Shown here one piece after another: positions 3 through 34,506 of a DNA stretch of 64,000 nucleotides. The stretch's first letter is position 1, and each line of letters begins with the position of its first letter. The DNA lies in assembly GCA_001606155.1 (NCBI GenBank), contig LODT01000029.1, positions 682,001-746,000 of the forward strand, given 5' to 3'. Under the pieces are notes generated by a model. It saw nothing but the letters and a program-made list of their open reading frames with translations. It searched no databases and was not told the origin of the DNA. The translations under genes and the position numbers were made by a program. This DNA is from Tieghemostelium lacteum. Taxonomy: Eukaryota > Evosea > Eumycetozoa > Dictyosteliales > Raperosteliaceae.

Positions 3-2201
3 CAGGAATTTAATAATAGAAAACAACATTCCAGCGCTGGTAGTAACAGAAACTCAGTATTGATTTCATCAGAGGAATATGAAGATGATCTCTCTAATTG
101 GGATTTGATTAGTAATGAAGAGTTGTTAATGTACTATGGATACTCGCTCAATGAAGATAATGATAACCTTACTTTTAGAATCAAGGTTTATAAATCTGAA
201 AAGGAGTTGATGGAGCTGTGTAAAGATGATCAAGAGGAGTTCCAAAGAGAGATGAAATTGATGAAAACCAAGATTAAGATACTTCAGTCTATTGGTATTG
301 GAATGAATCTGTCTGCGTCTTCAGAAGGAAACCATAAACTGTGTATCAGTGAAGATGGCTATTTTGTAGAGACTCTAACTAGAGACAAACAGTTGGGAAC
401 TAATGTCCTGGAGGTTTGTAGAATTAGTAAATTGCGTGAAGGAGAGTCCTATTTCTATGAAGAGAACCAGTGTTTGACTATGATTAATCCTAGAAATGAA
501 TTGGAGACTCTTGTAAGTCTAAGTAAGAATCTTTTGCAGGTTCTCAATTTGATCTTGAAAAAGGTACATTTGATCAATGATGGTTCTATATGTATAGGTT
601 CTCAAATGTTGTCTACGGAACTAGAGAAATATTATAAACAACATCAGTCCATTGTTGAACAGTCACTTTTGCATGTGTCTACATTAAAGAGCGAGTTTTG
701 TAGATCTGCAAATTCCAGAGCTCTACAGAGTAGCTATGTTAAACCCATTGCTGATATCTATAGAAAATTTGAAAATTGGTTAAAATCAGGTGGAGTGATA
801 TTCCCAAAGATTCAAATTGCAAATTTCAATGATTCCACTGGTAGAGGTGTTATAACTACCAAACGTATTGAAGAGGGTGAAGCTGTCATACAAGTTCCCA
901 AAAACTATCTGATAACAGTTGACGTTGCAAAATCACATCCAGTGTTGGGTCCTATTTTTGCAGAGTTACATTTCAATGATGACACTGTACTCTTTCTATT
1001 CCTCATCTATGAAAAAGAGAATCCCAATAGCTTCTGGAGACCTTTTTACGAGACTTTGCCATCATATTTCACAACATCTATAAATTACAGTGCAACTGAG
1101 CTTTTGGAATTGGAGGGAACAAATCTCTTTGAAGAGACATTACAGGTGAAACAACAGCTACAATCATTCAGAGACTATCTATTTCCAGAGCTTTCTAAAC
1201 AATTTCCTGATGTTTTTCCAGAGACTTTGTACAGTTGGGAGAATTTCTTGTGGGCTAGGTCTTTGTTAGATAGCAGAGCTATACAGTTAAAGATAGATGG
1301 CCAAATCAAGTCTTGTCTAGTTCCAATGGCAGATATGATCAATCACCACCAACATGCTCAGATTTCAGAACGTTTCTTTGATGAAGAAACCAATTCATTT
1401 AAGATGATTAGTTGTTGTAATATACCTGTAAACAACCAGGTATTTTTACATTATGGTGCACTTCAGAATTGGGAATTGGCTTTGTACTATGGTTTTGTTA
1501 TTCCTAATAATATCTATGATAGCTATCACATTGGATTTGAATTGGACAGTGAAGAGATGGAACATGAACAAGATACAGAGGTAAAGAAAGAATTTGAATT
1601 GTTAAAGAAGAAAAAATTAAAATTACTAGAGGATCACAACTTGTCACTGGATTCACATTTCCTTAGAAAGGATAGAATTCCAAGCAAGATATTTGCAGCT
1701 CTCAGAGTGGTATTGCTCTCTGACAAGGAATTTAATCCACATGTTGATATATTCAATCCAATAACTCGAAGAAATGAAGAAATTGTTTTACAAACACTCT
1801 ATGGATTGGTTTTAATGCTACTAAAGAGATTTTCATCAACCTACCATGAAGACAAACAGCTATTGGAGAGTCTAATTGAACAGCAGCAACAAAATCAAAA
1901 TATTAGATCAAGTGAGGATTTGGAAGATGATGAAGAGGATGAAGATGAAAATGTAGATGAACCCAATGATATTAGATCAACTGAACAAATGTCCATGGTT
2001 CTTCAGTATAGAATTGAACAAAAAGAAATATTATCAATGTCTATTGAGAAAATTGTAGATATCATGAAAGAAATGTCTTTTGAAATACCCCAGAGTCCAA
2101 GTGATGTCAGTGATAATGATTTAGACAGTCAAGAGGAAGAAGAGGAGGAAGATGATGATGAATTTTATAGTGATACCAATGATTCAACTGATGAAAATTA
2201 A
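3..2201 (+). CDS. SET-domain protein methyltransferase, 5' end outside window
   Basis: The frame is open from the first bases of the window to a TAA at 2199-2201, so the true start lies upstream; about 732 residues are visible. The first ~260 residues are charged and helix-prone with no recognised domain. A split SET domain of the SETD3/SETD4/Rubisco-methyltransferase type follows. Its N-terminal part includes GRGVITTKRIEEGEAV (about visible residues 279-295), then comes a helical insert, then the C-terminal part with MADMINHH (about 440-447) and FLHYGALQNWELALYYGF (about 479-496). In this family the N-H pair and the tyrosine bind S-adenosylmethionine and the target lysine or histidine. The tail is very acidic (runs of E and D). 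The family methylates non-histone proteins such as actin or translation factors; the substrate here is unknown. The last ~130 codons were copied into the spacers of the neighbouring tandem array. Confidence 0.85.
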   Translation, partial: QEFNNRKQHSSAGSNRNSVLISSEEYEDDLSNWDLISNEELLMYYGYSLNEDNDNLTFRIKVYKSEKELMELCKDDQEEFQREMKLMKTKIKILQSIGIGMNLSASSEGNHKLCISEDGYFVETLTRDKQLGTNVLEVCRISKLREGESYFYEENQCLTMINPRNELETLVSLSKNLLQVLNLILKKVHLINDGSICIGSQMLSTELEKYYKQHQSIVEQSLLHVSTLKSEFCRSANSRALQSSYVKPIADIYRKFENWLKSGGVIFPKIQIANFNDSTGRGVITTKRIEEGEAVIQVPKNYLITVDVAKSHPVLGPIFAELHFNDDTVLFLFLIYEKENPNSFWRPFYETLPSYFTTSINYSATELLELEGTNLFEETLQVKQQLQSFRDYLFPELSKQFPDVFPETLYSWENFLWARSLLDSRAIQLKIDGQIKSCLVPMADMINHHQHAQISERFFDEETNSFKMISCCNIPVNNQVFLHYGALQNWELALYYGFVIPNNIYDSYHIGFELDSEEMEHEQDTEVKKEFELLKKKKLKLLEDHNLSLDSHFLRKDRIPSKIFAALRVVLLSDKEFNPHVDIFNPITRRNEEIVLQTLYGLVLMLLKRFSSTYHEDKQLLESLIEQQQQNQNIRSSEDLEDDEEDEDENVDEPNDIRSTEQMSMVLQYRIEQKEILSMSIEKIVDIMKEMSFEIPQSPSDVSDNDLDSQEEEEEEDDDEFYSDTNDSTDEN

Positions 2202-2306
2202 TAAAATATAACTTATAATCCCACGTTGGAGTAATATTTTTTTGATTTTTGTTTTAATAGGTTGATATAAAATAGAATTTCTATAAGATTAAAATTAAAG
2301 ATGGAA

Positions 2307-2788: not shown

Positions 2789-5700
2789 TTATTGTAGTTT
2801 AATTATTTTTTCAATGTCAGAATAGAGAATAGAGTTAGATCTTCTCAGATTTAGATTTTTAAGAATGAATTCAAATGGTTCATTGTTGAATTTAGAAGTG
2901 ACAACCTTATTCCAAGGCTCTTCAGAGATTTCAATTGGTCTTTTATCTTTTTTCTTGATGAAACCATTTGAAGTGAAAATGTTGTTGAGATGTGGGTGTT
3001 TCTCTAAGAGAGTACTGAGAGAATATTGGTCAATTTCTAAAACACCAAGAATAGAGTATATTTGTGAGATATTATCTGTGTGGAAATATTTTGAACCATT
3101 CAAAAGAGTGATTTGATTGAATATCAAATCTACACTCTTGAAATCTTTGATTTTACTTGGTAGAGGTGTGTGAAGACGTCTCAGAAGATCAATTTGTGTA
3201 TTGGACATGATTGGAGAAACTTGATGAAGAGATGCAATTATACTCTGAAGTGGTTGATCTCTTAGAATTGGTAACAAATAATTGGCTTCATAGGAACTGA
3301 TGAATATCACAACAGGGTTGTCTCTCCAGAGTACCAATATATAATTTGGAGTCTTTAGATATTGGTCAAGTGAGGTATAGTCCGATGTACCTTCTAATGT
3401 GATTGTTTCAGTGAAGTTGTATGAACATCGAATAGAAGGATCCCAGCCAGACACAGTGGGTCCAAACTGTTTACTGATAGAGGTGTTCTTGTACATTTCA
3501 GAGATATAGAAAATCTCAAAATTGTTAATAGATTCATTTGGTTTTGTGCACAGAGTCTCTAGATGTTTCAATGCTGAATATTTGTTTTTTGCAGGTTCTC
3601 TAGCAGTTGGTAATTGGACGATATGCTCTCTTTCTTGTTCAATTTCACATTCTCTTTCCTGCTCTTCATCAGCACCTATATTGGAATATGTATTAACTTC
3701 AGAAACATAATTAGAAGTAACCTCCATAATATCGTTATGTAATTCATCCAATTTTTCAGTAAATTCCTGTTCAGCAATTTCCAATACTGATAGACATTTC
3801 ATCTTGGAATTTACAGAACTATAGAATATGATTTCTCTCAATTCTGTCAATGTGTAGTTAGCTCCATACATTTCCTCTAAATTCACTTTTTCAGGGGAAC
3901 TAGATAATTGTCTTAAGGTCTCTGGGTGGGATTGGAATAATTTAGTTGCCAAATGAGTTTGGGAATACATTATACCTTGTGTGGCCCACGATTGGAATGC
4001 ATTGATATTAGATTGAATAGTATTCTTTGTTACAAATTGTAAGATCATTTGAGGAGTGATAGAGTTTAGGTTTGGAGTCTGATTGAATTGACTGAAATTC
4101 AATTGATCAGAGACAAGGAAACTGATGGTTTGACCATGTCCAAACTTTCTTAATCTGAGGATACCATGTAAAAGTTTCTCTTTGGTAAGATTGAGACCAA
4201 CAGTAACACATGCATGTGTGTCAATTGGGAATTTGATATCAACACCTCTGGTATGGTAATCATCAAGATAGGTTACTACTCTTTTGAGGTTATTGACAAA
4301 TGGTGAGAGATGGAATGGGTATTTTCGACCAGATCTATCAATAGCTGTCAAGAGATTGTTTTCAAAGAATAGTGCTCCATCAATGTATGATGGATCTGAG
4401 AACCTAACCAGAGTCTTGCAACTTCATCATTTGATTTACCAATCATAAGTGCACCAGTATCAATGAGAACTTTAGCTTTCTTACCATTATTCTCATTAGA
4501 AATCAATTTCTGCATGATGGTATTCTTGTTTACAACTTCAACTGGTTTTGGTAATTGTTGAGATAAGACATAGTGAATGACTTCGAAATTAGTGTATTTT
4601 AGTTCTTCCATATCTTGTTGTTTGATGTTTAGTGGTAATAGACATCTGGTATCATTGGTTCCACTGAATCCAATGGTGGTGAGATTTTCTTTTTCAGAAG
4701 AAATATCCCATGCATTGGCCAATAGTTTCTCTGGGAAACATTTGGTTTCATAAGGTAGAACCAATGATGACAAGTAGTAATTGATCACCAAGATATTGAA
4801 TTTGAATATCTTATAGAGCTTGTTTAACTGTTCAGTATTTGATAATACAATGGAATAAGATGATTTGTATTCAGATGGAATATTGATTTCTTCTTTTACC
4901 CAATCTCCATAGATCTTGTTTGCATGTTGTTTTTCTTTTTTGATGAGATATTCAAGAGTGTCAACAAATTGTTTGTGAGTCAAACCTTGGTTGTAGTATG
5001 CCAAGTGAGTGAGAATCAATGCAACATCAGGATGACCATATTCAGCTCTTTCAGAAGGTGTATCTTTGGCACGATAAGGAACTGCCAATTTGGTTCTATC
5101 ATTATGAGTCAATCCAAAGTCTTTGGTTGGTATCTTTTCAAGACAATGCAACAAGACTCCATAAACAAACATACCTCTATAAATTAATGCTAATGTTTTG
5201 AACATATTATCATTAAATCCATTGAGTTTATCAATAACCTGTTCGCTGAGATCTTCTCTTTTGGACATTTCAGATAGGATAGTTTTCTTGTCAGGATCCA
5301 ATTGTTTAACTTTAATCACATATTCTAAAAACTGATCTAGAAGAAGTCTACCTTTATCTGAATTGAGGATTGTGATCGAAGGGAACCCTGAATTTAATTC
5401 CTTGTTGGATATTACAATTTGATTGATACCAATTGCTTTATCATAAGAAATATATCGTTTGAGTTGGATGAGAATTTCTTGAATGATTTTCCAACGTTGA
5501 TTATCTCCATCAAGTGGAATTTTACCTCCAATTGGATAGACTAATTGATATTTATGTGATAGTAGTTCATCACATTCATCGAGAATATCATAAATATTAT
5601 CATTATACCAATTGATAATGTCGATCATATACTTGGATTCATCTTCAAATTTCAATTTCCATTTTAGTTGGAATGATAAGGTGTGTTCTGGTGTTGATAG

Positions 5701-8700
5701 AATGATACCATTGTTATTTTTACATTCATTCAACTGATTCAACATTGTAGAGACTTGGTTTCTATCTAGAAAGTTTCTGTCTCTTTGGTATGGGAACATA
5801 TAGAGTTTTCTATTGAGAATACCTCCCATACGTCTGATAATATCATCTCTTGATGTTTCCAAAAGTGATGGAAGAACATTAACTCTGACAGCTTTGTTCT
5901 TTCTGGAGAGTGCCAAACACATCAAAGGAAGAATTACAGATGTTTTACCTTCTCCCATTTGAAGTTGAGTGCAGATATTCTCTTTGGAGTTCATGAGATC
6001 AATTGCAATCTTTGATTGAATATCTCTGATCATTATACCTTGTTCCAATTCAAACATTAACCATTCAGGATATTGACTTGGTTTCCAATTTCTGTTCAAT
6101 CTTGATGTTTCTAATTCTCGAATAGCATCATCTTTAGAACCTGATTGACAACGTAGTACTTTGTTTATATAGGTTCTCAATAGAATATAAGAACCAATAC
6201 ACTTGAATAATGGAGATTCAATATCACCTTTACCAATTGATTCCAAATAGTATTTAAAAATACTGGTTTTGGTTGAATGATTTTCCAAACCACAAAATCT
6301 AAATGTTTTTGAGAGAATTTCATCACTTTGGAAAGCAGTCATTATTAAATCCCAAACTTCAACAGATCTTTCAGTAGCAATACGATATACCTTTTCTAAA
6401 TTGGTGTTATATTTTGTACTAAGATCACTCTTTGGTTGCTCAGATAGTTTCTTTTTAAGAGATTCTAAACTTTGTTCTAGATCCTCATGAATGTGAGTTG
6501 ACATTTGATCTCCTGCTTTAATAGACTGTAGGAATCCTTGGCAATTAGGTGACAATGTTGAAGGCTTCAATTTAACCAAACATTCACTTAATAGATTTTC
6601 AATTTCCTCGTCCATACCACTATCAAACAAATTCAAGAAATAAAGTGAATAATTTGAAAGAGTTTGAATTTTGACCAATGGTTTCAGCAGTGGTTTAGGT
6701 GTGTTAATAAGTTGAGGTGAAGGTAAAAATAGATATTTCAGTACTGATTCAAGGGCAGGTTGCTTTGCAAATGTCTTTTTCTTCTCTTGTCTCAAAATGG
6801 CATCAATAGAATTGATACTTTCTAAGAGTGGTGTGTTATTCATCCATTTAGTTACCAACTTTTGCAACTGGATAGAGAATTGTGGATGGTTTGGGAATGA
6901 TTGAAGTTTAATTGGAACCTGTCCAATATCTTTTTTCTTCTCCCAATATTCATTATCTACACTAAAGTTGGTCTGGAAGAAAAGCGAACTCTGTTGAGGA
7001 TTTTCAAATTTGATGTGCTTGTTTATAAGATTATTAATTTCCTGAGCATTAAATGCAATTAAAGGTGCTGATACACCGTGTACTGCTGGTGTCTGAATGG
7101 GTGATATTTTTCTATGAGCAACACAAGCCAGAGAATCAAAGTAACCATCTGGAATTCTAAAATGTTTGTTATTTAAGTTTTTTGATATTGAATTCCAATT
7201 CCATTGTAGATAAGTGAACAGGTACTTTAGAGAATTCATACTGTATTTGTTGATAGATGTCATATAGGCAAGATTATAGAGAGTCAGATAATAGTCACTT
7301 GGTGTTACTGTAAAATCAATACAGTTAATTTTATCAATATTATCTTGTTCTCCATTAATTTTTTTGAACCTATCGTTCGAACCTAACAATATAAATTTTA
7401 CGAAACCATTAGATAAATTGGTTGGTAGATGATTCATTAGTTTAATGGAGAGACATTTGGTATCTATTGGCTTGGTTCTGTCAAATTCAACTTTGAATTT
7501 GGGTTCGTTGTTATTACTTGTCAATATATAATCATTAATTCGAGTTAGATGAGATTGATTCTTAATGGATAGTCTATAATGATTTTCCATTAATTTATGA
7601 TTATTCAATTCAAAATCACCTAAGGGTTGATTAGTAGACTTTGGTGTACCAAGGTGGAGGAATTTCAATTGTTTGTTATTATTTATGATGTGTTTGGTCA
7701 ACAGGTAGAAGGATTCATAGGCAATCGATGGATGGAGTAATTCATTCCATTCAACATTTTGGAAATGGAATTGACATGTTCTCTTGGGTGACAGTGAACC
7801 AATGTCCTTAAGAATTATTTTACATTCTTTAGATAATGGGATATTAGATTGGTAGTGATTCAAGGCTTGGATTGATGATTCTACACCAGTTAGACCTGTG
7901 AATGGATCTGGAAGTGTTGATGATGTTGCTGCATGTAAATAGGATAAGAATATTTGGGGGAGGATATCATTACTTCGAAGAAGAGAGAACTCATTGTCAA
8001 CATCATAACAGAATAGTGCTGAATTTTTAGGTACCTGAAAAGTGGATATTGTTACGTGGTGGTGTGCAAGTAAATTTCCGTTTATACGCTGGTTGTTGAT
8101 TTTCACAATTGTGCTATTTGGAATAATTACTTTCTTCTTGGTCTGTTTCTCATCAATGAGAACTAGAATGGATTGGAAACCAATTAGAGTACCTAGGTAT
8201 TGGTCTGGTGAAACATTGTATCCTGGATATTGGTTAGATCTAATCTTACCATCAGATAGAGTAAAGTCTAAATTATAACAAGAGAGTTTCACATTGATTT
8301 GATTTGTTTTTATATTCTGAAAAACTTCTAGATTGGTTTCAGAAAATTCAATTGGTTTAAATACAGCATGAATGTTTTCAAAATCTGAAGATTTGAGGTT
8401 CATAAGATAGAAATCGTTTTCAGATTCCAATAATTTTTCCTTCAGTCTATAGGTATATTTAATTGGGTCGTGGAAGGACTTAAAGTTCTTGGATCTAAAT
8501 TCAATTGTAAAATTCTTTGGATCGTACCAATGGCTGTACTCATTCACCAAAGTGTTGCAAATGAGTGATTTGAAGTTACTACTTGGTACCAGGTAACGAA
8601 CTTCATTGTTCCAAAGTGCCTTTATACCATACGAATTTTTACCAACACTGAAGAACTCGTAGTGGCAATCATAGTATTTATCAACAGTTTTCCATTTACG

Positions 8701-11700
8701 TTTATCAACAATACGTACTTGTAAAATTGTCAATCCAAATAAACTATTATATATAGATGAATTTTCAATTTCTGATGGTAATCTTGAAATTGGGTTGAAA
8801 TTAATTAAAAATTCACCATTTTGTAGATTGATTGTGATATTGTATTTTTCATTAGCCACTTTATCAGTAACGATATAGGTGATGCAATGTGAATTATTTG
8901 AGACCAATTTATAAATACAATCTGATCCTCTATTCCAATATTCTGAAATGAATTGGGGTATAATTGTGAGATTACCTTGTAATGTTTTGACCACTGTTGT
9001 ATACTGTTTCAGTGATATTCTTTGTACTTCTGATATTAACTGTTGGAAAACTACTGAATTATCTTGAATTGCCATCTTTCCATTTACAATCATGGTATTG
9101 GCTTTCAAATAGACAATTGATCTAATATAATCTATAGTTTCAGTTGGTGCATCTTGCATATCAATATTAAAAGTCAACAATGAACATATACAAGCATACA
9201 CCATATTGGTCTTTAATTTCTGTGATTCTAGAGAATTGGAATTTTGAATTAACTTGTGTAATGTTGACATCCAATTTTGAGAAATCTCTCTACATTTAAT
9301 TAGACATTGAATAATATCTTTCTTTTTGTTGTTATTGTTATTGTTGTGATTGGATGATGACTTATCAGTATTCAATAAAATCAATAGAATTTTAATGAAT
9401 GTCAACATGGAGTACTTGGATTCCCAATTACCTTTGATATTATCAAGGTTTTTTCTAATGGAATCAACTAAAAGATGTGTGATAATAGGATCTCTAGTAT
9501 CTAATTTCCAAGGTCTAACATTATTATTATCAGGATTAGGACCAACTTGATAAATTATTTGCATAATTAAAAGATAGGTTTCAACTTGATTGAAATCTAA
9601 TCTTTGACCATCAAGAGCTCTGATGATATTTCTAATCTGAAGATTCGAACCACATCTCATTATACCAAAATCACAGTATTGGTCTGGTGTCATTATTGAT
9701 ATTGGACAAATATTCTGAGTTGCAATAACTTGGTTTTCAGTGATATCACTGCTATTGAGAATCCATTGTAATGGGTGTTCTTTCTTGCTGTTGTTACTAG
9801 AAACAATACAAGGAATGGTATAGACAATGTTATTCAGATTCCAAGCATCAATTTTTGGTATTTCCAAACTCTGTGGCCAACTATCATCACCAATATAGAA
9901 GCCACTAGTTCTCTTATCAGTAGGCTTGATAACAGCATCTAGAGTTGATGTAAAAACTTTACATTTTTTATATCTTGTGGCTATAAATGGTTTTGTAAGA
10001 CTACCAAGATAGACAATTCTTTGGTCTCTGGTTTTTCTATTTTCAGGGCGAATCCAAAATTCACCTGGTACTTCAATGGGTTTAGGCTCAGTAAAGAGGT
10101 CTATCAATACAGCATAGGCATTTGTAACTACAATCAATTCACTTGGCATGTGTTTTTCATACATAAGAACATGTTTACCTACCTCATCACGAGGTAGATA
10201 ATCCTCATGAATTAATATATTTTTCTTCTGTTCTTTAGTTATTAATTTCATTTGTTCCATTTGTACTTTGGGATCTTTGGATTGTTTGATTGCCAATTGG
10301 AATTTAGCTATATTGTCTCTTATGGATTGAGATGCATTTTCGAATTCACTTTGTTTATTCGTTCGATTGAGAACTTGTTGATCTATTAACTTATTCAATT
10401 TGGTTTGGTAATGGTGTAACGACCAGTTATAAGCAAAACCTGTATTACTTGTAGAGAACAAATCTTCATTATCCTGAATAGCATCTTCAAATCTATTCTT
10501 AAAGTAGAACTCAATTTCATTCAATAAATGATATTCGTGATGGTACTCCAGTAACAGTCTGTCAAAGACACCAATGTTCATATACGGTGGATGTTTATAA
10601 TAGATCTCTGAAGATTCTCCATTAAAATTCAAACTAGGTATATGATCAATGATAGCCACTATAGCTACACATGTCAAGATCATTTTACTTCTGAGTTTAG
10701 AATCATTCTTGTAGGTATTCAATGCATATTCTTTATACAATTGCAAAATCTCCAATAATTGACGACCATAATTAAAATTCTTCATTAATTCAATTCTTTG
10801 TTTCCATAAAACGGTAGATACTACATTTTCAACAGTATGTAATATCAAATCGATATTATACTGAGGGATTACATTTCTATTTGGAAGAAGTTGTTTTAGC
10901 TGAGGAATCACTTCCTTTGCATTGGCAACATTGAGTAAAGGTTCCAACTTTGTCATGGTTATTGTTGGTTTCGATTGCTCACCTACCACATCATCTTTTG
11001 AAATTTCATTCATGTTCTGTAAAAAACCGTCAAAATCATGAACAATGGATGCAAGATTTTCTTTTACACTGAATATTTTTTTGATTGTATTAGATATTAA
11101 ACCCCTTTTAGCCCATTCAATAGAGCTCTCTTTCCACTTTTGTTCATTGCTCTTAGTTAATTTACCAATAACCATATAAGTGTTTTCCATTACCCTATCC
11201 ATAAATTCAATGAATTCTGGGTGGTTAATGAGAGATGAATTTTCTTTTAAACTTTCTAGTTTCCTTATTCTACTGGCTAATTTCAATTGAAGTTCATGAA
11301 TATCATTAATTTGAAGATTATTATAGTTTTGGTCCAAAATTGCAGTGAGAAAGTCTGTGATTATCAGCTTATACAGAGTAGTGCTGTGGCCAGGTACAGG
11401 ATCTAGTTTGGCAAATAAGAAATGTATTGAAGCCTTTAGCCCAACCCATAGTGGTGACCTACGCCATATCTGTTTATTTGGTACCATAAATCCTTGAGTA
11501 GATAATGATTTAAAGAATACTGGTGAAGTTCTATCAAAATCCAAAGCATCAGTTGGTAGTAACCATTCAGTGATTGCAGTAGGAAATGGTGAATATCTGT
11601 CATCAGATGTTTCCACATTACCTTTCTTCACTTTAGTTTGACAGATATCTAAAGTAGTTTCCAAGTTTTTCAAAAACAATAGATTTTCAATAAAATCATT

Positions 11701-12108
11701 ATCTTGGATAACAGTTAGTGGAAACTTATAACTATGTAATGGTGTTATCATATTATACTTCAAATCAGTTGCTTGGACCTTTGGGTCAGTTGGGTGTATT
11801 TGAATGACACTAACCAGTACATAGTCAGGATTGTCATCACTGTGAAATACCAACATACAATTTGATTGTCTAATGTGTATAATAATTGGTGAATTAAATC
11901 CTAAACTAAAAAGATCTTTCATTTCCTTTACAGTTTTTAATTTATCAGGATTCATATATTCGAAAGCTTTAAGAAGCTTCTCAGCTATATTAAAATCAAA
12001 TCCACTAGATTCTGCAAAATATTGAAAATAGCTTTTAATCCTTGCCAATATTCTCGTTTCAACATCATTATCGATCTGTTCCCAAGACTGAGGTAACCCT
12101 CTAGTCAT
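2789..12108 (-). pseudogene. DUF6606/DUF3638/DUF3645 giant protein, copy 1, frameshifted
   Basis: This is the copy nearest the SET gene. The upstream part (4348-12108) starts at an ATG with MTRGLPQSWEQ and runs 2,586 residues; the remaining ~520 codons (2789-4351) continue in another frame. Against copy 3 one A is missing at about 4400 (gagaacc here, gagaaacc there). After ...ARLWLG the frame runs into a stop about 17 codons later. The downstream part opens with TTG, not ATG, so it is a tail rather than a separate gene. All family marks remain: P-loop QMGEGKTS, DECDEL, VPYRAKDTPSERAEYGHPD, YLDDYHTRGVDIKFP. The truncated product would keep the P-loop and DUF3645 core but lose the C-terminal helicase-like segment. 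It may be a recent pseudogene, a gene for a shortened protein, or a sequencing error. The rest of the copy shows no other break. Confidence 0.8.
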
Positions 12109-12360: not shown

Positions 12361-12370
12361 AAATTGGTTT

Positions 12371-22611: not shown

Positions 22612-25600
22612 TTATTGTATTTTAATGATTTTTTCAATGTCAGAATAGAGAATAGAGTTAGATCTTCTCAGATTTAGATTTTTAAGAATGAATTCAAATG
22701 GTTCATTGTTGAATTTAGAAGTGATAACCTTATTCCAAAGCTCTTCAGAGATTTCAATTGGTCTTTTATCTTTTTTCTTGATGAAACCATTTGAAGAGAA
22801 AATGTTGTTGAGATGTGGGTGTTTCTCTAAGAGAGTGCTGAGAGAATATTGGTCAATTTCTAAAACACCAAGAATGGAGTATATTTGTGAGATGTTATCT
22901 TTGTGGAAATATTTTGAACCATTCAAAAGAGTGATTTGATTGAATATTAAATGAACACACTTGATATCTTTGATTTTACTTGGTAGGGGTGTGTGAAGAC
23001 GTCTCAGAAGATCAATTTGTGTATTGGACATGATTGGAGAAACCTGATGAAGAGATGCAATTATATTCTGAGGTAGTTGTACCACTTTAGAATATAATTG
23101 TTCTCTTAGAATTGGTAACAAATAATTGGCTTCATAGGAACTGATGAATATCACAACAGGGTTATCTCTCCAGAGTACCAATATATAATTTGGAGTCTTT
23201 AGATATTGGTCAAGTGAGGCATTGTCCGATGTACCTTCTAAAGTTATAGTTTCAATGAAATTGTATGAACATCGAATAGAAGGATCCCAGCCAGATGCAG
23301 TGAGTCCAAACTGTTTACTGATAGAGGTGTTCTTGTACATTTCAGAGATATAGAAAATCTCAGAATTGTTAATAGATTCATTTGGTTTTGTGCACAGGGT
23401 CTTTAGATGTTCCAGTGTTGAATATTTGTTTTTTGCAGGTTCTCTAGCAGTTGGTAATTGGACGATATACTCTCTTTCTTGTTCAATTTCACATTCTCTT
23501 TCCTGCTCTTCATCAGCACCTATATTGGAATATGTATTAACCTTAGAAACAAATCTAGAAGAAACTTTCATAATATCTTGATGTAATTCTTCAAATTTAT
23601 CAATAAATTCCTGTTCAGCATTTTCCAATACTGATAAACATTTCATCTTGGATTTTACAGAATTAGAGTATATGATTTTTCTCAATTCTGTCAATGAGTA
23701 GTTGGCTCCATACATTTCCTCTAAATTCACTTTTTCAGGGGAACTAGATAATTGTCTTAAGTTCTCGGGCTGAGATTGGAATAATTTAGTTGCTAAATGA
23801 GTTTGGGAATACATTATACCTTGTGTGGCCCACGATTGGAATGCATTGATATTAGATTGAATAGTATTCTTTGTTACAAATTGTAAGATCATTTGAGGAG
23901 TGATGGAGTTTAGGTTTGGAGTCTGATTGAATTGACTGAAATTCAATTGATCGGAGACAAGGAAACTGATGGTTTGACCATTTCCAAACTTTCTTAATCT
24001 GAGGATACCATGTAAAAGTTTCTCTTTGGTAAGATTGAGACCAACAGTAACACATGCATGTGTGTCAATTGGGAATTTGATATCAACACCTCTGGTATGG
24101 TAATCATCAAGATAGGTTACTACTCTTTTGAGGTTATTGACAAATGGTGAGAGATGGAATGGGTATTTTCGACCAGATCTATCAATGGCTGTCAAAAGAT
24201 TGTTTTCAAAGAATAGTGCTCCATCAACGTATGATGGATCTGAGAAACCTAACCAGAGTCTTGCAACTTCATCATTTGATTTACCAATCATAAGTGCACC
24301 AGTATCAATGAGAACTTTGGCCTTCTTACCATTATTCTCATTAGAAATCAATTTCTGCATAATGGTATTCTTGTTTACAACTTCAACTGGTTTTGGTAAT
24401 TGTTGAGATAAGACATAATTAATGGCTTCGAAATTAGTGTATTTTAGTTCTTCCATATCTTGTTGTTTGATGTTTAGTGGTAATAGACATCTGGTATCAT
24501 TGGTTCCACTGAATCCAATGGTGGTGAGATTTTCTTTTTCAGAAGAAATATCCCATGCATTGGCCAATAGTTTCTCTGGGAAACATTTGGTTTCATAAGG
24601 TAGAACCAATGATGACAAGTAGTAATTGATCACCAAGATATTGAATTTGAATATCTTATAGAGCTTGTTTAACTGTTCAGTATTTGATAATACAATGGAA
24701 TCAGATGATTTGTATTCAGATGGAACATTGATTTCTTCTTTTATCCAGTCTCCATAGATTTTGTTTGCTTGTTGTTTTTCTTTTTTGATGAGATATTCAA
24801 GAGTGTCAACAAATTGTTTGTGAGTCAAACCTTGGTTGTAGTATGCCAAGTGAGTGAGAACCAATGCAACATCAGGATGACCATACTCAGCTCTTTCAGA
24901 AGGTGTATCTTTGGCACGATAAGGAACTGCCAATTTGGTTCTATCATTATGAGTCAATCCATAATCTTTGGTTGGTATCTTTTCAAGACAATGCAACAGG
25001 ACTCCATAAACAAACATACCTCTATAAATTAATGCTAATGTTTTGAACATATTATCATTAAATCCATTGAGTTTATCAATAACCTGTCCGTTGAGAATTT
25101 CTCTTTTGGACATTTCAGATAGGATATTTTTCTTGTCAGGATCCAATTGTTTAACTTTAATCACATATTCTAAAAACTGATCTAGAAGAAGTCTACCTTT
25201 ATCTGAATTGAGGATTGTGATTGAAGGGAACCCTGAATTTAATTCCTTATTGGATATTACAATTTGATTGATTCCAATTGCTTTATCATCAGAAATATAT
25301 CGTTTGAGTTGGATGAGAATTTCTTGAATGATTTTCCAACGTTGATTATCTCCATCAAGTGGAATTTTACCTCCAATTGGATAGACTAATTGATATTTAT
25401 GTGATAGTAGTTCATCACATTCATCGAGAATATCATAAATATTATCATTATACCAATTGATAATGTCGATCATATACTTGGATTCATCTTCAAATTTCAA
25501 TTTCCATTTTAGTTGGAATGATAAGGTGTGTTCTGGTGTCGATAGAATGATACCATTGTTATTTTTACACTCATTTAACTGATTCAACATTGTAGAGACT

Positions 25601-28600
25601 TGGTTTCTATCTAGAAAGTTTCTGTCTCTCTGGTATGGAAACATATAGAGTTTTCTATTGAGAATACCTCCCATACGTCTGATAATATCATCTCTTGATG
25701 TTTCCAAAAGTGATGGAAGAACATTAACTCTGACAGCTTTGTTCTTTCTGGAGAGTGCCAAACACATCAAAGGAAGAATTACAGATGTTTTACCTTCACC
25801 CATTTGAAGTTGAGTGCAGATATTCTCTTTGGAGTTCATAAGATCAATTGCAATCTTTGATTGAATATCTCTGATCATTATACCTTGTTCCAATTCAAAC
25901 ATTAACCATTCAGGATATTGACTTGGTTTCCAATTTCTGTTCAATCTTGATGTTTCTAATTCTCGAATAGCATCATCTTTAGAACCAGATTGACAACGTA
26001 GTACTTTGTTCATATAGGTTCTCAATAGAATGTAAGAACCAATACACTTGAATAATGGAGATTCAATATCACCTTTACCAATTGATTCCAAATAGTATTT
26101 AAAAATACTGGTTTTGGTTGAATGATTTTCCAAACCACAAAATCTGAATGTTTTTGAGAGAATATCATCACTTTGGAAAGCTGTAATTATTAAATCCCAA
26201 ACTTCAACAGATCTTTCATTAGCAATACGATATACCTTTTCTAAATTGGTGTTATATTTTGTACTAAGATCACTCTTTGGTTGCTCAGATAGTTTCTTTT
26301 TAAGAGATTCTAAACTTTGTTCTAGATCCTCATGAATATGAGTTGACATTTGATCTCCTGCTTTTATAGAATGTAGGAATCCTTGGCAATTAGGTGATAA
26401 TGTTGAAGGTTTCAATTTAACCAAACATTCACTTAATAGATTTTCAATTTCCTCGTCCATTCCACTATCAAACAAATTCAAGAAATAAAGTGAATAATTT
26501 GAAAGAGTTTGAATTTTGACCAATGGTTTCAACAGTGGTTTAGGTGTGTTACTAAGTTGAGGTGAAGGTAAAAATAGATGTTTCAGTACTGATTCAAGAA
26601 CAGGTTGGTTTGCAAGTGTCTTTTTCTTCTCTTGACTCAAAATGGCATCAATAGAGTTAATACTTTCTAAGAGTGGTGTGTTATTCATCCATTTAGTTAC
26701 CAACTTTTGCAACTGGATAGAGAATTGTGGATAGTTTGGGAATGATTGAAGTTTAATTGGAACCTGTCCAATATCTTTTTTCTTCTCCCAATATCCATTG
26801 TCTGCACTAAAGTTGGTCTGGAAGAATAGCGAACTCTGTTGAGAATTTTCAAATTTGATGTGATTGATTATCAGATTTTTAATTTCCTGAGCATCAAATG
26901 CAATTAAAGGTGCTGATAAACCGTGTACGGCTGGTGTCTGAATAGGTGATATTTTTCTATGAGCAACACAAGCCAGAGAATCAAAGTAACCATCTGGAAT
27001 TGTAAAATGTTTGTTACTGGGGTTTTTTGATATTGAATTCCAATTCCATTGTAGATAAGTGAACAGGTATTTTAGAGAATTCATACTGTATTTGTTGATA
27101 GATGTCATATATGCAAGATTATAGAGAGTCAGATAATAGTCAATTGGTGTTACTGTAAAATCAATACAGTTAATTTTATCAATATTATCTTGTTTTCCTC
27201 TAATTTTTCTGACCTTTTTGTTCGAACCTAACAATATAAAATGTACTAAACTATTAGGTAAATTGGTAGGTAGATGACTCATAAGTTTAATGGAGAGACG
27301 TTTGGTATCTATTGGCTTGGTTCTGTCAAATTCAACTTTGAATTTGGGTTCGTTGTTATTACTTGTCAATATAGAATCATTAATTCGAGTTAGATGAGAT
27401 TGATTCTTAATGGATAGACTATAGTAATTTTCCATCAATTTGTGATTGATTTCAATATCACCTGAGGGTTTTTTTTTAGACTTTGGTGGACCAAAGTGAA
27501 GGAATTTCAATTGTTTGTTATTATTAATGATATGTTTGGTCAACAGGTAAAAGGATTCATAGGCAATCGATGGATGGAGTAATTCATTCCATTCAACATT
27601 TTGGAATTGGTGATAGCATGTTCTCTTGGGTGACAATGAAGCAATATATCGAAGAATTGTTTTACATTCTTTAGATAATGGGATATTAGATTGGTAGTGA
27701 TTCAAGGCTTGAATTGATGATTCTACACCAGTTAGACCTGTGAATGGGTCTGGAAGTGTTGATGATGTTGCTGCATGTAAATAGGATAAGAATATTTGGG
27801 GGAGGATATCATTACTTCGAAGAAGAGAGAACTCATTGTCAACATCATAACAGAATATTGCTGGATTTTGATGTTGTGCCTGAAAAGTGGATATTGTAAT
27901 GTGGTGGTGTGCAAGTAAGTTTCCGTTGATATGCTGGTTGTTGATTTTCACAATTGTACTATTAGGAATAATTACTTTTTTCTTGGTCTCAGAGTCATCA
28001 ATAAGAACTAGAATGGATTGGAAACCAATTAGAGTACCTAGGTATTGGTCTGGTGAAACATTGTATCCTGGATATTGGCTAGATCTAATCTTACCATCAG
28101 ATAGAGTAAAGTCTAAATTATAACAAGAGAGTTTCACATTGATTTGATTTGTTTTTATATTCTGAAAAACTTCTAGATTGCTTTCAGAAGATTCAATTGG
28201 TTTAAATACAGCATGAATGTTTTCGAAATCTGAAGATTTGAGGTTCATAAGATAGAAATCGTTTTCAGATTCCAATAATTTTTCCTTCAGTCTATAGGTG
28301 TATTTAATTGGGTCGTGGAAAGACTTAAAGTTCTTGGATCTAAATTCAATTGTAAAATTCTTTGGATCGTACCAATGGCTGTACTCATTCACCAAAGTGT
28401 TACAAATGAGTGATTTGAAGTTACTACTTGGTACCAGGTAACGAACTTCATTGTTCCAAAGTGCCTTTATACCATACGAATTTTTACCAACACTGAAGAA
28501 CTCGTAGTGGCAATTATAGTATTTCTCAACAGTTTTCCATTTACGTTTATCAACAATACATACTTGTAAAATTGTCAATCCAAATAAACTATTATATAGA

Positions 28601-31600
28601 GATGAATTTTCAATTTCTGATGGTAATCTTGAAATTGGGTTGAAATTAATTAAAAATTCACCATTTTGTAGATTGATTGTGATATTGTATTTTTCATTAG
28701 CCACTTTATCCGTAACGATATAGGTGATGCAATGTGAATTATTTGAGACCAATTTATAAATACAATCAGATCCTCTATTCCAATATTCTGAAATGAAATT
28801 GGGTAAAATCGTGAGATTACCTTGTAATGTTCTGACCACTGTTGTATACTGTTTCAGTGATATTCTTTGTACTTCTGATATTAATTGTTGGAAAACTATT
28901 GAATTATCTTGAATTGAAATCTTTCCATTCACAATCATGGTATTGGCTTTCAAATAGACAATTGATCTAATATAATCTATAGTTTCAGTTGGTGCATCTT
29001 GCATATCAACATTAAAAGTCAACAATGAACATATACAAGCATACACCATATTGGTCTTTAATTTCTGTGATTCTAGAGAATTGGAATTTTGAATTAACTT
29101 CTGTAATGTTGACATCCAATTTTGAGAAATCTCTCTACATTTAATTAGACATTGCATAATATCTTTCTTTTTGTTAATGGAAGGTAATTTATCAGTATTC
29201 AAAAAAACCAATAGAATTTTAATGAATGTCAACATGGAGTACTTGGATTCCCAATTACCTTTGATATTATCAAGGTTTTTTCTAATGGAATCAACTAAAA
29301 GAGGTGTGATAAAAGGATCTCTAGTATCCAATTTCCAAGGTCTATCATTATTATTATTATTATCAGGATTAGGACCAACTTGATAAATTATTTGCATAAT
29401 TAAAAGATAAGTTTCAACTTGATTGAAATCTAATCTTTGACCATCAAGAGCTCTGATGATATTTCTAATCTGAAGATTAGAACCACATCTCATTATACCA
29501 AAATCACAGTATTGGTCTGGTGTCATTATTGATATTGGACAATTATTCTGAGATGCAATAACTTGGTTTTCAGTGATATCACTGCTATTGAGAATCCATT
29601 GTAATGGGTGTTCTTTCTTGGTGTCGTTACTAGAAACAGCTCTAGGAATGGTATATACAATGCTATTCAGATTCCAAGCCTCAATTTTTGGAATTTCAAA
29701 ACTCTTTTTTGGGTCTTCACCAATATAGAAACCACTAGTTCTCTTATCAGTAGGCTTGATAAAAGCATCTAGAGTTGATGTAAAAACTTTACATTTTTTA
29801 AATCTTGTGGCTATAAATGCTTTTGTAAGACTACCAAGATAGACAATTCTATTGTCTTTGGTTTTTCTTTTTTCAGGGCGAACCCAAAATTCACCTGGTA
29901 CTTCAATGGGTTTAGGTTCAGTAAAGAGGTCTATCAATACAGCATAGGCATTGGTAACTACAATAAATTCACTTGGAATGTATTTTTCATACATAATAAC
30001 TTGTTTACCTACTTCATCACGAGGTAGATAATCTTCATGAATTACCATCCTTTTCTTTTGTTCTTTAGTTATTAATTTCATTTGTTGATCTTGTTCTTTG
30101 GGATCTTGGGATTGTTTGATTGCCAATTGGAATTTAGCTATATTGTCTCTTATGACTTGAGACTCATGTTCGAATTCACGTTGTTTATTCGTTCGATTGA
30201 GAACTTGTTGATCCATGAAATTATTCAATTGGGTTTGGTAATGGTGTAACGACCAGTTATAAGCAAAACCTGTTTTACTGGTAGAGAACAAATCTTCATT
30301 ATTCTTAATAGCATCATCAAATCTATTTTTAAAGTAGAACTCAATTTCATTCAATAAATGATATTCGTGGTGGTGATCCAGTAATAGTCTGTCAAAGACA
30401 CCAATGTTCATATACGGTGGATGTTTATAATAGATCTCTGAAGATACTCCATTAAAATTCAAACGAGGTATATGATCAATGATAGCCACTATAGCTACAC
30501 ATGTCAAGATCATTTTACTTCTGAGTTTAGGATCATTCTTATATGCATCCAATGCATATTCTTTATACAATTGCAAAATCTCCAATAATTGACGACCATA
30601 ATTAAAATTCTTCATTAATTCAATTCTTTTATTCCATAAAACGGTAGATACTACATTTTCAACAGTATGTAATATCAAATCGATATCATACTTAAGGTTT
30701 TCAATTCTATTCGGAAGAAGTTGTTTGAGCTGAGGAATCACCTCCTTTTCGTTGTAAACATTGAGTAAAGGTTCCAACTTTGTCACAGTTATTGTTTGTT
30801 TCGATTGCTCACCTACCACATCATCTTTTGTAATTTCATTCATGTTCTGTAAAAAACCGTCAAAACCTTGAAAAATGGATGCAAGATTTTCTTTTACACT
30901 GAATATTTTTTTGATTGTATTAGATATTAAACCCCTGTTAGCCCATTCAGTAGAGCTCTCTTTCCACTTTTGTTCATTACTCTTAGTTAATTTATCAATA
31001 ACCATATAAATATTTTTCATTACCCAATCCATATATCCAATGAATTCTGGGTGGTTAATGAGAGATGAATTTTCTTTTAAACTTTCTAGTTTCCTTATTC
31101 TACTGGCTAATTTCAATTGAAGTTCATGAATATCATTAATTTGAAGATTATTGTTGTTTAACACAATTTTGGTGAGAAAATCTGTGATTATCAGCTTATA
31201 CAGAGTAGTGCTGTGGCCAGGTACAGGATCTAGTTTGGCAAGCAAGAAATGTATTGAAGCCTTTAGCCCAACCCATAGTGGTGACCTACGCCATATCTGT
31301 TTATTTGGTACCATAAATCCTTGAGTAGATACTGATTTAAAGAATACTGGTGAAGTTCTATCAAAATCTAAAGCATCAGTTGGTAGTAACCATTCAGTGA
31401 TTGCAGTAGTAAATGGTGAATATCTGTCATCAGATGTTTCCACATTACCTTTCTTCACTTTAGTTTGACAGATATCTAAAGTAGTTTCCAAGTTTTTCAA
31501 AAACAATAGATTTTCAATAAAACCATTATCTTGGATAACAGTTAGTGGAAACTTATAACTATGTAATGGTGTTATCATATTATACTTCAAATCAGTTACT

Positions 31601-31935
31601 TGGAGCTTTGGGTCAGTTGGGTATATTTGAATGACACTAACCAGCACATAATCAGGATTGACATCACTATGAAATACCAACATACAATTTGATTGTCTAA
31701 TGTGTATAATAATTGGTGAATTAAATCCTAAACTAAAGAGATCTTTCATTTCCTTTACAGTTTTTAATTTATCAGGATTCATATATTCAAAAGCTTTAAG
31801 AAGTTTCTCAGCTATATTAAAATCAAATCCACTAGATTCTGCTAAATATTTAAAATAGCTTTTAATCTTTGCCAATATTCTCGTTTCAACATCATTATCA
31901 ATCTGTTCCCAAGACTGAGGTAACCCTCTAGTCAT
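22612..31935 (-). CDS. DUF6606/DUF3638/DUF3645 giant motor protein, copy 3, intact
   Basis: One open frame of 3,107 residues from ATG (MTRGLPQSWEQ) to TAA, with the same domain order as copy 2: DUF6606-like start, P-loop QMGEGKTS, DECDEL, the DUF3645 block VPYRAKDTPSERAEYGHPD, YLDDYHTRGVDIKFP and the EEQERECEIEQERE stretch. It agrees with copy 2 at many places where copy 1 differs (for example IDDSETKKK and FHFGPPKSKKKPSGD). It agrees with copy 1 elsewhere (YDPKNFTIEF, SENDFYLMN), so the copies are mosaics. It lacks most of the poly-asparagine run of copies 1 and 2, and carries a private insertion (REQLYSKVVQLPQNIIASLHQ) in the C-terminal part. It is the copy next to the FG-GAP gene and probably sits in the ancestral position on that side. 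Confidence 0.9.
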   Translation of the reverse strand: MTRGLPQSWEQIDNDVETRILAKIKSYFKYLAESSGFDFNIAEKLLKAFEYMNPDKLKTVKEMKDLFSLGFNSPIIIHIRQSNCMLVFHSDVNPDYVLVSVIQIYPTDPKLQVTDLKYNMITPLHSYKFPLTVIQDNGFIENLLFLKNLETTLDICQTKVKKGNVETSDDRYSPFTTAITEWLLPTDALDFDRTSPVFFKSVSTQGFMVPNKQIWRRSPLWVGLKASIHFLLAKLDPVPGHSTTLYKLIITDFLTKIVLNNNNLQINDIHELQLKLASRIRKLESLKENSSLINHPEFIGYMDWVMKNIYMVIDKLTKSNEQKWKESSTEWANRGLISNTIKKIFSVKENLASIFQGFDGFLQNMNEITKDDVVGEQSKQTITVTKLEPLLNVYNEKEVIPQLKQLLPNRIENLKYDIDLILHTVENVVSTVLWNKRIELMKNFNYGRQLLEILQLYKEYALDAYKNDPKLRSKMILTCVAIVAIIDHIPRLNFNGVSSEIYYKHPPYMNIGVFDRLLLDHHHEYHLLNEIEFYFKNRFDDAIKNNEDLFSTSKTGFAYNWSLHHYQTQLNNFMDQQVLNRTNKQREFEHESQVIRDNIAKFQLAIKQSQDPKEQDQQMKLITKEQKKRMVIHEDYLPRDEVGKQVIMYEKYIPSEFIVVTNAYAVLIDLFTEPKPIEVPGEFWVRPEKRKTKDNRIVYLGSLTKAFIATRFKKCKVFTSTLDAFIKPTDKRTSGFYIGEDPKKSFEIPKIEAWNLNSIVYTIPRAVSSNDTKKEHPLQWILNSSDITENQVIASQNNCPISIMTPDQYCDFGIMRCGSNLQIRNIIRALDGQRLDFNQVETYLLIMQIIYQVGPNPDNNNNNDRPWKLDTRDPFITPLLVDSIRKNLDNIKGNWESKYSMLTFIKILLVFLNTDKLPSINKKKDIMQCLIKCREISQNWMSTLQKLIQNSNSLESQKLKTNMVYACICSLLTFNVDMQDAPTETIDYIRSIVYLKANTMIVNGKISIQDNSIVFQQLISEVQRISLKQYTTVVRTLQGNLTILPNFISEYWNRGSDCIYKLVSNNSHCITYIVTDKVANEKYNITINLQNGEFLINFNPISRLPSEIENSSLYNSLFGLTILQVCIVDKRKWKTVEKYYNCHYEFFSVGKNSYGIKALWNNEVRYLVPSSNFKSLICNTLVNEYSHWYDPKNFTIEFRSKNFKSFHDPIKYTYRLKEKLLESENDFYLMNLKSSDFENIHAVFKPIESSESNLEVFQNIKTNQINVKLSCYNLDFTLSDGKIRSSQYPGYNVSPDQYLGTLIGFQSILVLIDDSETKKKVIIPNSTIVKINNQHINGNLLAHHHITISTFQAQHQNPAIFCYDVDNEFSLLRSNDILPQIFLSYLHAATSSTLPDPFTGLTGVESSIQALNHYQSNIPLSKECKTILRYIASLSPKRTCYHQFQNVEWNELLHPSIAYESFYLLTKHIINNNKQLKFLHFGPPKSKKKPSGDIEINHKLMENYYSLSIKNQSHLTRINDSILTSNNNEPKFKVEFDRTKPIDTKRLSIKLMSHLPTNLPNSLVHFILLGSNKKVRKIRGKQDNIDKINCIDFTVTPIDYYLTLYNLAYMTSINKYSMNSLKYLFTYLQWNWNSISKNPSNKHFTIPDGYFDSLACVAHRKISPIQTPAVHGLSAPLIAFDAQEIKNLIINHIKFENSQQSSLFFQTNFSADNGYWEKKKDIGQVPIKLQSFPNYPQFSIQLQKLVTKWMNNTPLLESINSIDAILSQEKKKTLANQPVLESVLKHLFLPSPQLSNTPKPLLKPLVKIQTLSNYSLYFLNLFDSGMDEEIENLLSECLVKLKPSTLSPNCQGFLHSIKAGDQMSTHIHEDLEQSLESLKKKLSEQPKSDLSTKYNTNLEKVYRIANERSVEVWDLIITAFQSDDILSKTFRFCGLENHSTKTSIFKYYLESIGKGDIESPLFKCIGSYILLRTYMNKVLRCQSGSKDDAIRELETSRLNRNWKPSQYPEWLMFELEQGIMIRDIQSKIAIDLMNSKENICTQLQMGEGKTSVILPLMCLALSRKNKAVRVNVLPSLLETSRDDIIRRMGGILNRKLYMFPYQRDRNFLDRNQVSTMLNQLNECKNNNGIILSTPEHTLSFQLKWKLKFEDESKYMIDIINWYNDNIYDILDECDELLSHKYQLVYPIGGKIPLDGDNQRWKIIQEILIQLKRYISDDKAIGINQIVISNKELNSGFPSITILNSDKGRLLLDQFLEYVIKVKQLDPDKKNILSEMSKREILNGQVIDKLNGFNDNMFKTLALIYRGMFVYGVLLHCLEKIPTKDYGLTHNDRTKLAVPYRAKDTPSERAEYGHPDVALVLTHLAYYNQGLTHKQFVDTLEYLIKKEKQQANKIYGDWIKEEINVPSEYKSSDSIVLSNTEQLNKLYKIFKFNILVINYYLSSLVLPYETKCFPEKLLANAWDISSEKENLTTIGFSGTNDTRCLLPLNIKQQDMEELKYTNFEAINYVLSQQLPKPVEVVNKNTIMQKLISNENNGKKAKVLIDTGALMIGKSNDEVARLWLGFSDPSYVDGALFFENNLLTAIDRSGRKYPFHLSPFVNNLKRVVTYLDDYHTRGVDIKFPIDTHACVTVGLNLTKEKLLHGILRLRKFGNGQTISFLVSDQLNFSQFNQTPNLNSITPQMILQFVTKNTIQSNINAFQSWATQGIMYSQTHLATKLFQSQPENLRQLSSSPEKVNLEEMYGANYSLTELRKIIYSNSVKSKMKCLSVLENAEQEFIDKFEELHQDIMKVSSRFVSKVNTYSNIGADEEQERECEIEQEREYIVQLPTAREPAKNKYSTLEHLKTLCTKPNESINNSEIFYISEMYKNTSISKQFGLTASGWDPSIRCSYNFIETITLEGTSDNASLDQYLKTPNYILVLWRDNPVVIFISSYEANYLLPILREQLYSKVVQLPQNIIASLHQVSPIMSNTQIDLLRRLHTPLPSKIKDIKCVHLIFNQITLLNGSKYFHKDNISQIYSILGVLEIDQYSLSTLLEKHPHLNNIFSSNGFIKKKDKRPIEISEELWNKVITSKFNNEPFEFILKNLNLRRSNSILYSDIEKIIKIQ

Positions 31936-32210
31936 GAATAAATGTTGAAAAATCCTATTCTCCCTATATCCAATACATTAAAGAATTAATACTAACTACA
32001 GTATAATTAAAAATTATTTTTTATAAATCATACATGATAGATATCGGTTTTAACAGATATTGATACGATTTAGATGAAATAAAAAAAGTCTTAAAATTTT
32101 TTTTTTGATTGATTGGGGTGTTTAGATATTTTAGGAGATTTAAAGAGTGCTTTATAAAAATTTTATAAACTCGAAAAATGAGTGAGAATTGATTAAATTT
32201 ATTTTTTGTA

Positions 32211-34506
32211 TTAGAGTACACTACTATTTGTTGTTGAGCTTTTTAGGAAAAATATGGACATGGAAAGCAATAGCAGAGGTATTAGAATAAAGTATTTTAA
32301 AAGTTTGAAAATGGAGTGATTAAAAGTCAACGAAATGGAATCTTGATAAAGTTGTTGATTGTTATTGAGTAACTCAATCTGAAGTAGAGTGGGTTCAGAG
32401 ATGATATTGGGAGTCTGTAAAAGTGCACTATAATGACCAGTTGAGAAATAGTTGTTCTCAAAGAGTGTTGTGTTTCCATAGAGTATACGAATGTGATAGG
32501 TTTGGTCTGGTGCTGAGGCTTTAGTGTTACTGTTAAATATCTCAAAATCCACTGTAAATTCCTGATTGATAATGTCACGTTGTGACTGATACTTTTGTCT
32601 AAAGTCGTTAGAGAACATTACACCTTCTCTATTTGTTTGAGAATTGGACGCAAAAACATTTCTTCCGTGGTTAAAAGACATTCTAGTCTGCCATGGTTTA
32701 TACTGAAACCCAGTTTGAAAACACACAATCGATCCAGAATGAGATGTAAATATTAAATCTAAAATTCCATCACCATTTACATCGTCAGCTAGTAAATCAG
32801 CAAATGATACAAAGTCACCATAATCATATTTATCAACACACCCTGATTTACCATCAATTGTGTATATAACACCATCGCCTGCATGGGTGATTATAATCAT
32901 TCCAGGATCTGTTTGATTCTGTTTGTCAACTAATAGAACCTGGTTAAATACCTCTCCAGAGATTCTAATGGGGAAGTTGTCTAGTGGTTCACCAGTCTTT
33001 CCATTCCATGCCCATATTGAGTGTCCAAAACTTCCAACTACCACATCCAACTGTCCATCACCATTAATGTCACCTATAGACACTGGTGCCTCTGTTCTAT
33101 CCACAATCTCACCTTGCCAAAGCTCATCACCATTATGAGAGAAACATACTACATTTCCATTAGAATCCGTAGCTATCAACTCCAATTTACCATCACCATT
33201 CAAATCATGTGCTACAACCTGTGAGAATATAGAGTCCATCAGTAAAGGGAAGTTTCCAGGTATAGGCACACCCTTCTCCGAAAGTGCGTATATAAACCCT
33301 AATGAAGTTCCAACAATGATATCTAAACGACCATCACCGTCTATATCGACAATAGTTGGTGCGTCATAGACATACCCTTTGTAATCGTTGATATCGTCTG
33401 TTGTAATATCCAAATGAGTTTGCCATTTAATAGTACCTCTCTTCAAATCAAAGCATACTATACCACCAGCAACATATTTACTAGGATCTATTGATTTATC
33501 TAATTTAGAAGCTCTGTGATGTGAATCTGCATAGTACTGCTGATCGTAGTAATACGATATTGAAAGCACCAAATCCATCGACCCGTCTTGATCAATATCA
33601 ACCAAGACCGGTGTAGAAATGATATGTGCATCTACATAGACATAGTTTTCTCTATCGTATGCATTAGAGTACCATATATTAGTCTCTATAAAGTCTTTGT
33701 AACTTTTGGAGAAATATGGACTTTCAGAATCTACATTCTGCAATAACTCTGTATTTATATTACCACTCTGTTGCTGTCTGTGTTGTTCCTCTACATTCTC
33801 TTCAACATTGGTATGTGATACTATATTCTTCTTATTATCCTTGTTTGTCAATGACAATGAAGCATCTACATGTTTTTGGTCTAACCCGTCAAACCAATTT
33901 TTCTTTACTTTTAGCGGAGGCACTTTTAAAGTGTCATTAGAGAGCAATATACCATTACTCTGAATAAATAGTATCTCACCTTCTCTAGTTGACACTATTA
34001 TATCTAATTTACCATCACCATTCTTATCATAAACTAAAGGACTTGCAATAAATGTTGATTCATCCAAAATAAAAGGAAATCCAAACACTCTATCACCATC
34101 AGCACCTCTGAGTACATCTATATAGTTTGTAGCTTCAAATACAATAATCTCCTTATTACCATCACCAAATAAATCAACAATCAAAGGTGTGGAACCTACA
34201 GTTGTCGTTAATTCATTCTCCCAATAAACATCCAATTCTGTGTTTTTACATTTATTTGCTGTTGATCCTTTAGTTGAATCTACACCACTATTCAAATGAT
34301 ATTATATTAGTAAACCTTAACATTATCTCTAACTTCCTTTACTATGTTTATAAATGAACCTACAATACTACTTCTTCAATTTGCAATGGTATATTGTTTG
34401 AATATTTATTATCAATTATTGCCAATTGATTGTTATTGGCAATCTCAACTGATACAACTGTGTATATAAATAGAATAAAAAAAATATGAAAACAGTTGAT
34501 CTTCAT
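32211..34506 (-). CDS. FG-GAP/VCBS repeat type I membrane protein (DEX1-like)
   Basis: Two exons: 34364-34506 and 32211-34287, with a 76-bp intron (34288-34363) that joins TT|T GGT in frame; 739 residues. The first exon gives a signal peptide (MKINCFHIFFILFIYTVVSV). The mature part carries at least seven FG-GAP/VCBS calcium-binding loops: DLFGDGNKE, DKNGDGKLD, DIDQDGSMD, DIDGDGRLD, DLNGDGKLE, DINGDGQLD and DVNGDGILD. Together they imply an integrin-alpha-like beta propeller in the secretory lumen or outside the cell. One C-terminal membrane helix (LKYFILIPLLLLSMSIFFL) ends with a very short cytoplasmic tail. The layout is that of plant DEX1-like proteins; the ligand is unknown. Only 81 bp separates its start from the divergent gene at 34588. 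Part of its 3' region is duplicated in the array spacers. Confidence 0.85.

Follow-up and report, generated by a model that had tools for sequence, protein, structure and literature searches.

The three tandem DUF3638 genes in the analysed window, a stretch of 64,000 nts from Tieghemostelium lacteum (contig LODT01000029.1), are separated by two joints (J1 and J2) that are copies of one another, and both go back to a single illegitimate event. The complete history that we propose, in which one joint was formed at a microhomology, decayed, and was then copied together with a gene by unequal crossover, is probably correct.

The locus, in an AT-rich, amoeba-like genome, comprises, from left to right, a SET-domain gene (plus strand), three DUF3638 genes named D1, D2 and D3 (all on the minus strand), and an FG-GAP/DEX1-like gene (minus strand). 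The coordinates of all features are listed in Table 1. Self-BLAST of the window showed that the DUF3638 copies are 96.2% (D2-D3), 94.9% (D1-D2) and 94.8% (D1-D3) identical over ~9.6 kb. The SET gene was identified by its matches to PF00856 (E=4e-7) and PF09273 (E=2.9e-13). A preliminary description of this locus had placed both donor genes intact at the outer ends of the array. The FG-GAP gene is indeed open; the SET frame is open over the part that lies inside the window (base 3 to the stop codon, 2201), and only this part can be judged, the 5' end being beyond the window edge. The remainder of the window (34683-64000) contains ordinary-looking eukaryotic housekeeping genes.

Table 1. Features of the DUF3638 array and its surroundings (window coordinates)
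Feature	Position	Strand	Remarks
SET / Rubisco-LSMT substrate-binding domain methyltransferase gene, left donor	3..2201	+	Pfam, ORF
Parental ATTGG, left breakpoint	1805..1809		in codon 559 of the SET ORF starting at 129
D1, DUF3638 copy 1	2789..12108	-	full-length except one 1-bp deletion
1-bp deletion/frameshift in D1	4401	-	codon 2570 of the copy
Presumed promoter (5' flank) of D1	12109..12368	-	homologous to 21884-22150 and 31936-32190
J1, FG-GAP relic	12369..12478		matches 32527-32649, ~80% with gaps
J1, fusion word ATAGG	12474-12478
J1, SET relic	12474..12571		matches 1805-1903, 84%
D2, DUF3638 copy 2	12587..21883	-	3098 aa, open; probable left/right recombinant
J2, FG-GAP relic	22150..22270		matches 32525-32649, 83% with gaps
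J2, fusion word ATTGG	22266-22270
J2, SET relic	22266..22571		matches 1805-2111, 94.8%; longest perfect run 100 bp
D3, DUF3638 copy 3	22612..31935	-	3107 aa, open
FG-GAP / DEX1-like gene, right donor	34301 to 32211	-	open; Pfam, ORF
Parental ATTGG, right breakpoint	32645..32649		inside the FG-GAP gene
Probable first exon of the FG-GAP gene	34360-34515	-	with signal peptide
RRP4 exosome subunit	38147
MFS transporter	39382
Class II tRNA synthetase	43063
Fes1-like	45332
Short-chain dehydrogenase	49425
TRF2/HOY1 PH-domain protein	56894
Ubiquitin-hydrolase plus exonuclease protein, PAN2-like	61565

Both inner spacers, read from left to right, consist of an FG-GAP piece ending at the position that corresponds to 32649, followed by a SET piece starting at 1805. 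Self-BLAST and alignments bear out the earlier proposal that each spacer joins FG-GAP to SET sequence in head-to-tail order; the FG-GAP contribution is the 3' portion of that gene, and the SET contribution comes from the gene's interior. When the spacers were aligned with the flanking genes, local alignment scores between relics and parents ranged from 116 to 532, whereas neither 200 shuffles nor 95 control pieces taken from elsewhere in the window scored above 44. A single ATTGG had been described at the fusion and in both parents; this word was found in the two parental sites and in J2, whereas J1 reads ATAGG. The SET relic of J2 lies in antisense orientation just downstream of D3, and read-through of D3, if any, would produce RNA antisense to the SET mRNA from this relic.

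The word common to both parental sites is exactly 5 bp, since the adjoining base differs on either side, and it is present once at the joint. At this base composition, the chance that at least 5 bp are shared at a random joint is 0.009, a value that applies to one event. Beyond these 5 bp, no long homology at the parental breakpoints was detected by self-BLAST of the window. There is good support for a head-to-tail duplication of a unit with one end within the SET gene and the other within the FG-GAP gene. Given the 5-bp microhomology, the first joint is likely to have originated by end joining or template switching; one microhomology at one joint is by itself compatible with both. The ancestral locus would have contained the SET gene, a single DUF3638 gene and the FG-GAP gene. 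A unit of ~11 kb, reaching from SET codon 559 into the FG-GAP gene, would have been duplicated head to tail, as the layout records, probably because two ends were joined or a polymerase switched template at ATTGG. Such an event would leave the donors whole on the outside and a single fused relic inside.

Both J1 and J2 lack FG-GAP positions 32189-32524 (3' end and flank, about 336 bp). As the conserved DEX1 beta-sandwich domain extends into this segment, the absence of the segment is a derived state. In addition, both joints read AAACC at a site where the intact FG-GAP gene has AAAATCC, a 2-bp loss that is frame-breaking there. Because the joints share the fusion and two later deletions, it follows that one joint was formed, decayed and was then copied with the gene; the fused relic would have lost the 336 bp or so of FG-GAP sequence and the further 2 bp in the interval, as both of its descendants record. 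The microhomology-driven tandem duplication of the preliminary description is therefore retained for the first duplication and replaced by copying for the second joint, which carries the same frame-breaking deletions as the first. After the copying, each joint decayed further independently: SET sequence is missing from about 1904 onward in J1 and from about 2112 onward in J2. Substitutions in the SET part are more numerous in J1 (15/98) than in J2 (5/98; p=0.03). The distance between J1 and J2 (0.10-0.16) exceeds the value predicted from D2-D3 (0.05), a point against the proposed history, and this excess is due to the faster evolution of J1.

Homologous unequal crossover is the most likely source of the third gene. 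The decayed joint and the gene, whose copying is visible in the shared deletions, would have been passed on when misaligned copies recombined homologously, an exchange that leaves three genes and a pair of sister joints. Unequal crossover predicts the arrangement left copy, joint, right/left chimera, joint, right copy, and, with all three genes on the minus strand, the left copy is predicted to have supplied the 5' end of D2. With a boundary at codon 420, which was picked after inspection of the data, synonymous p-distances in codons 0-420 are 0.055 (D1-D2), 0.072 (D1-D3) and 0.072 (D2-D3), and after codon 420 they are 0.072, 0.076 and 0.050, respectively. These distances form two age classes (recent and old), located where unequal crossover predicts them. 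In bootstrap analysis of synonymous distances among the three window copies, the remainder of D2 grouped with D3 (1.0) and its 5' 420 codons grouped with D1 (0.79); site patterns at synonymous codons were also clustered (runs test, p=0.015). A change-point search for a recombination point at an unspecified place was non-significant (permutation p=0.057, block permutation 0.33), and the promoter substitutions (D2 equal to D3 at nine, D1 equal to D2 at four) did not favour a chimera. The resulting D2 would be mostly right-hand copy with a 5' end from the left-hand copy, for which a single crossover is likely and patchy gene conversion is possible.

The three copies might instead have been generated in one event, by rolling-circle, break-induced or template-switch replication, with the joints later homogenised by gene conversion. 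Such a triplication would explain the identical fusion point of J1 and J2 and is in line with a J1-J2 divergence (0.10-0.16) about equal to that between joints and parents (0.05-0.17). However, two deletions would then have to be spread by subsequent conversion, and all copies should be equally distant from one another, whereas D2 and D3 are clearly the closest pair along most of their length (bootstrap 1.0); we consider a triplication unlikely. The presence of the same word in both joints could also be attributed to two independent illegitimate duplications at the same breakpoints, but chance would then have to account for the coincidence of both breakpoints and of two frame-breaking deletions, and the shared deletions contradict this account, leaving it a negligible probability.

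As to the first duplication, homologous recombination between flanking repeats is a common route in other genomes (PMC4232551, Figure 1B), and repeats or a mobile element on either side of the unit might have mediated it here as well. Self-comparison, however, revealed no repeat beyond 5 bp at the parental breakpoints, and neither tRNA genes nor Rfam elements were found in the 64-kb window; this origin is judged very improbable. The lone 1-bp frameshift of D1 is error-like and would suit an assembly artefact, with haplotypes or repeats misplaced end to end; yet the copies differ by 4-5%, their indels come in multiples of 3, and the spacers hold their own decayed relics, which is beyond what an assembler creates, and an artefact of this kind is extremely improbable. 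We retain one illegitimate joint followed by homologous copying as the most likely origin of the array.

Apart from its 1-bp deletion, D1 is open to the same stop as the other copies; as assembled, its ATPase motifs V and VI are out of frame. All but one of the coding indels among D1, D2 and D3 are multiples of 3, and overall dN/dS between copies is 0.44-0.47. Changes are unevenly distributed along the gene, with 85 nonsynonymous and 24 synonymous changes in residues 259-800 (the N-terminal third) versus 3 and 11 in the DUF3638 core (p=5e-5); D1 alone has 0 nonsynonymous and 6 synonymous changes in the core. The ATPase core of all three copies was under purifying selection, and the N-terminal third evolved nearly neutrally. 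This pattern in the core implies that, through the greater part of their history, all of the copies were kept functional, so that the frameshift of D1 either marks recent pseudogenisation or is an error of sequencing. Relaxation of selection in D1 after the frameshift was non-significant, both within D1 (p=0.44) and in comparison with D2 and D3 (p=0.15).

The encoded giant protein was characterized further. Pfam domains in D3 are DUF6606 (residues 5-258, 109.3 bits), DUF3638 (PF12340, residues 2000-2214, 233.8 bits) and DUF3645 (residues 2329-2361, 62.7 bits), all above curated cut-offs, together with a sub-threshold DEAD helicase match. A Parachlamydiales relative (a MAG) came up in a motif search and pointed on to the wider Chlamydiota phylum, and an alignment of 28 sequences including chlamydial relatives was the basis of the motif and fold analysis. 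Conserved positions in this alignment correspond to Walker A, DExD, a TGT-like motif, GxD and RxR, and G62/G64/K65, D187/E188, G632/D634 and R662/R664 are conserved in at least 90% of the 28 sequences. AlphaFold yielded a model with pLDDT 74.6 and pTM 0.68 on this alignment, and a useless one (pLDDT 29.5) from the window copies alone. In a Foldseek search against PDB, SecA ranked first (E=2.6e-8; TM about 0.39-0.47 for the best matches), followed by MDA5/LGP2 and other SF2 ATPases. The predicted fold of the DUF3638-DUF3645 core (window 23776-25983, D3 residues 1985-2720) is thus nearest to SecA among solved structures; since TM-scores are below 0.5, membership of the SF2 superfamily is supported more firmly than the SecA branch. 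With two RecA-like lobes in the predicted fold, Walker A, DExD and an arginine-finger motif, we conclude that the protein is probably an SF2 ATPase motor whose core resembles that of SecA. SecA proper was rejected on sequence, comparison with E. coli SecA giving a BLASTP E-value of 0.49 and an hhalign probability of 0.8%. Sequence searches of PDB returned no match for the single protein and E=0.2 or worse for the profile. No close relatives were present in viral contigs, phages or plasmids, PADLOC and NCBIfam searches gave no match, and the publications found on DUF3638 do not establish its function.

DUF3638 scored above the Pfam cut-off in 95 of 234 Chlamydiota genomes, in which many open frames of 2,000-4,400 codons were observed, with at least 11 matches in one genome. 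These giant frames are sometimes neighbours of one another. They occur mainly in genomes larger than 1.4 Mb; those of ~1.0-1.2 Mb mostly have none or marginal matches. The distribution suggests that the DUF3638 family has been exchanged or used in common between amoebae and their chlamydial symbionts. It is conceivable, though unlikely, that the array multiplies a giant SecA-like ATPase whose family is likewise strongly expanded in those Chlamydiota that have larger genomes and probably infect amoebae, that the frozen core and near-neutral N-terminal third would reflect host-symbiont conflict, and that read-through of D3 into the J2 relic would produce RNA antisense to the SET gene. The predicted SecA-like core is a candidate fold for this domain of unknown function, and a SecA-like SF2 ATPase family shared with Chlamydiota may outweigh the joint in importance.

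Like the DUF3638 family (PF12340) in general, the genes described here encode all three domains; unlike it, they form three near-identical tandem copies. They resemble SecA/SF2 helicases in predicted core fold, Walker A, DExD and motif V/VI-like residues, and differ from SecA in having no significant sequence similarity to the E. coli protein and about 9-11% identity in structural alignments. With regard to the array, microhomology-mediated tandem duplication (by MMEJ or MMBIR/FoSTeS) fuses units head to tail at a short word common to both ends. The DUF3638 array likewise has a head-to-tail joint, the short shared word once and no long homology, but it is known from a single old joint, and sequence alone does not give the repair route. 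Short-word head-to-tail joints are shown as a type of duplication in Figure 1C of PMC4232551. In the CUP1 arrays of Saccharomyces cerevisiae, breaks flanking the gene, some of them inside neighbour genes, were joined illegitimately, no flanking neighbour was duplicated whole, and copy number was then altered by unequal crossover (Zhao et al. 2014, PMC4232551). The rarity claimed in the preliminary description for such a record is too strong, because CUP1 arrays have the same layout: in both systems, one gene was duplicated between breaks in its flanks, and unequal crossover followed in CUP1 and most likely here. Units of CUP1 are 1.2-2 kb, with joints sharing ≤3 bp, repeats that differ by 0.5% and several independent origins (PMC4232551), whereas the DUF3638 array has a unit of ~11 kb, 5 bp shared, copies that differ by 4-5% and one origin. 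The array illustrates a known process well and reveals no new mechanism. It cleanly documents the start and growth of a large tandem array, with visible donors, one illegitimate joint and probably homologous copying, and is useful as a worked example in which the presence of the joint is a marker for dating the duplication among relatives.
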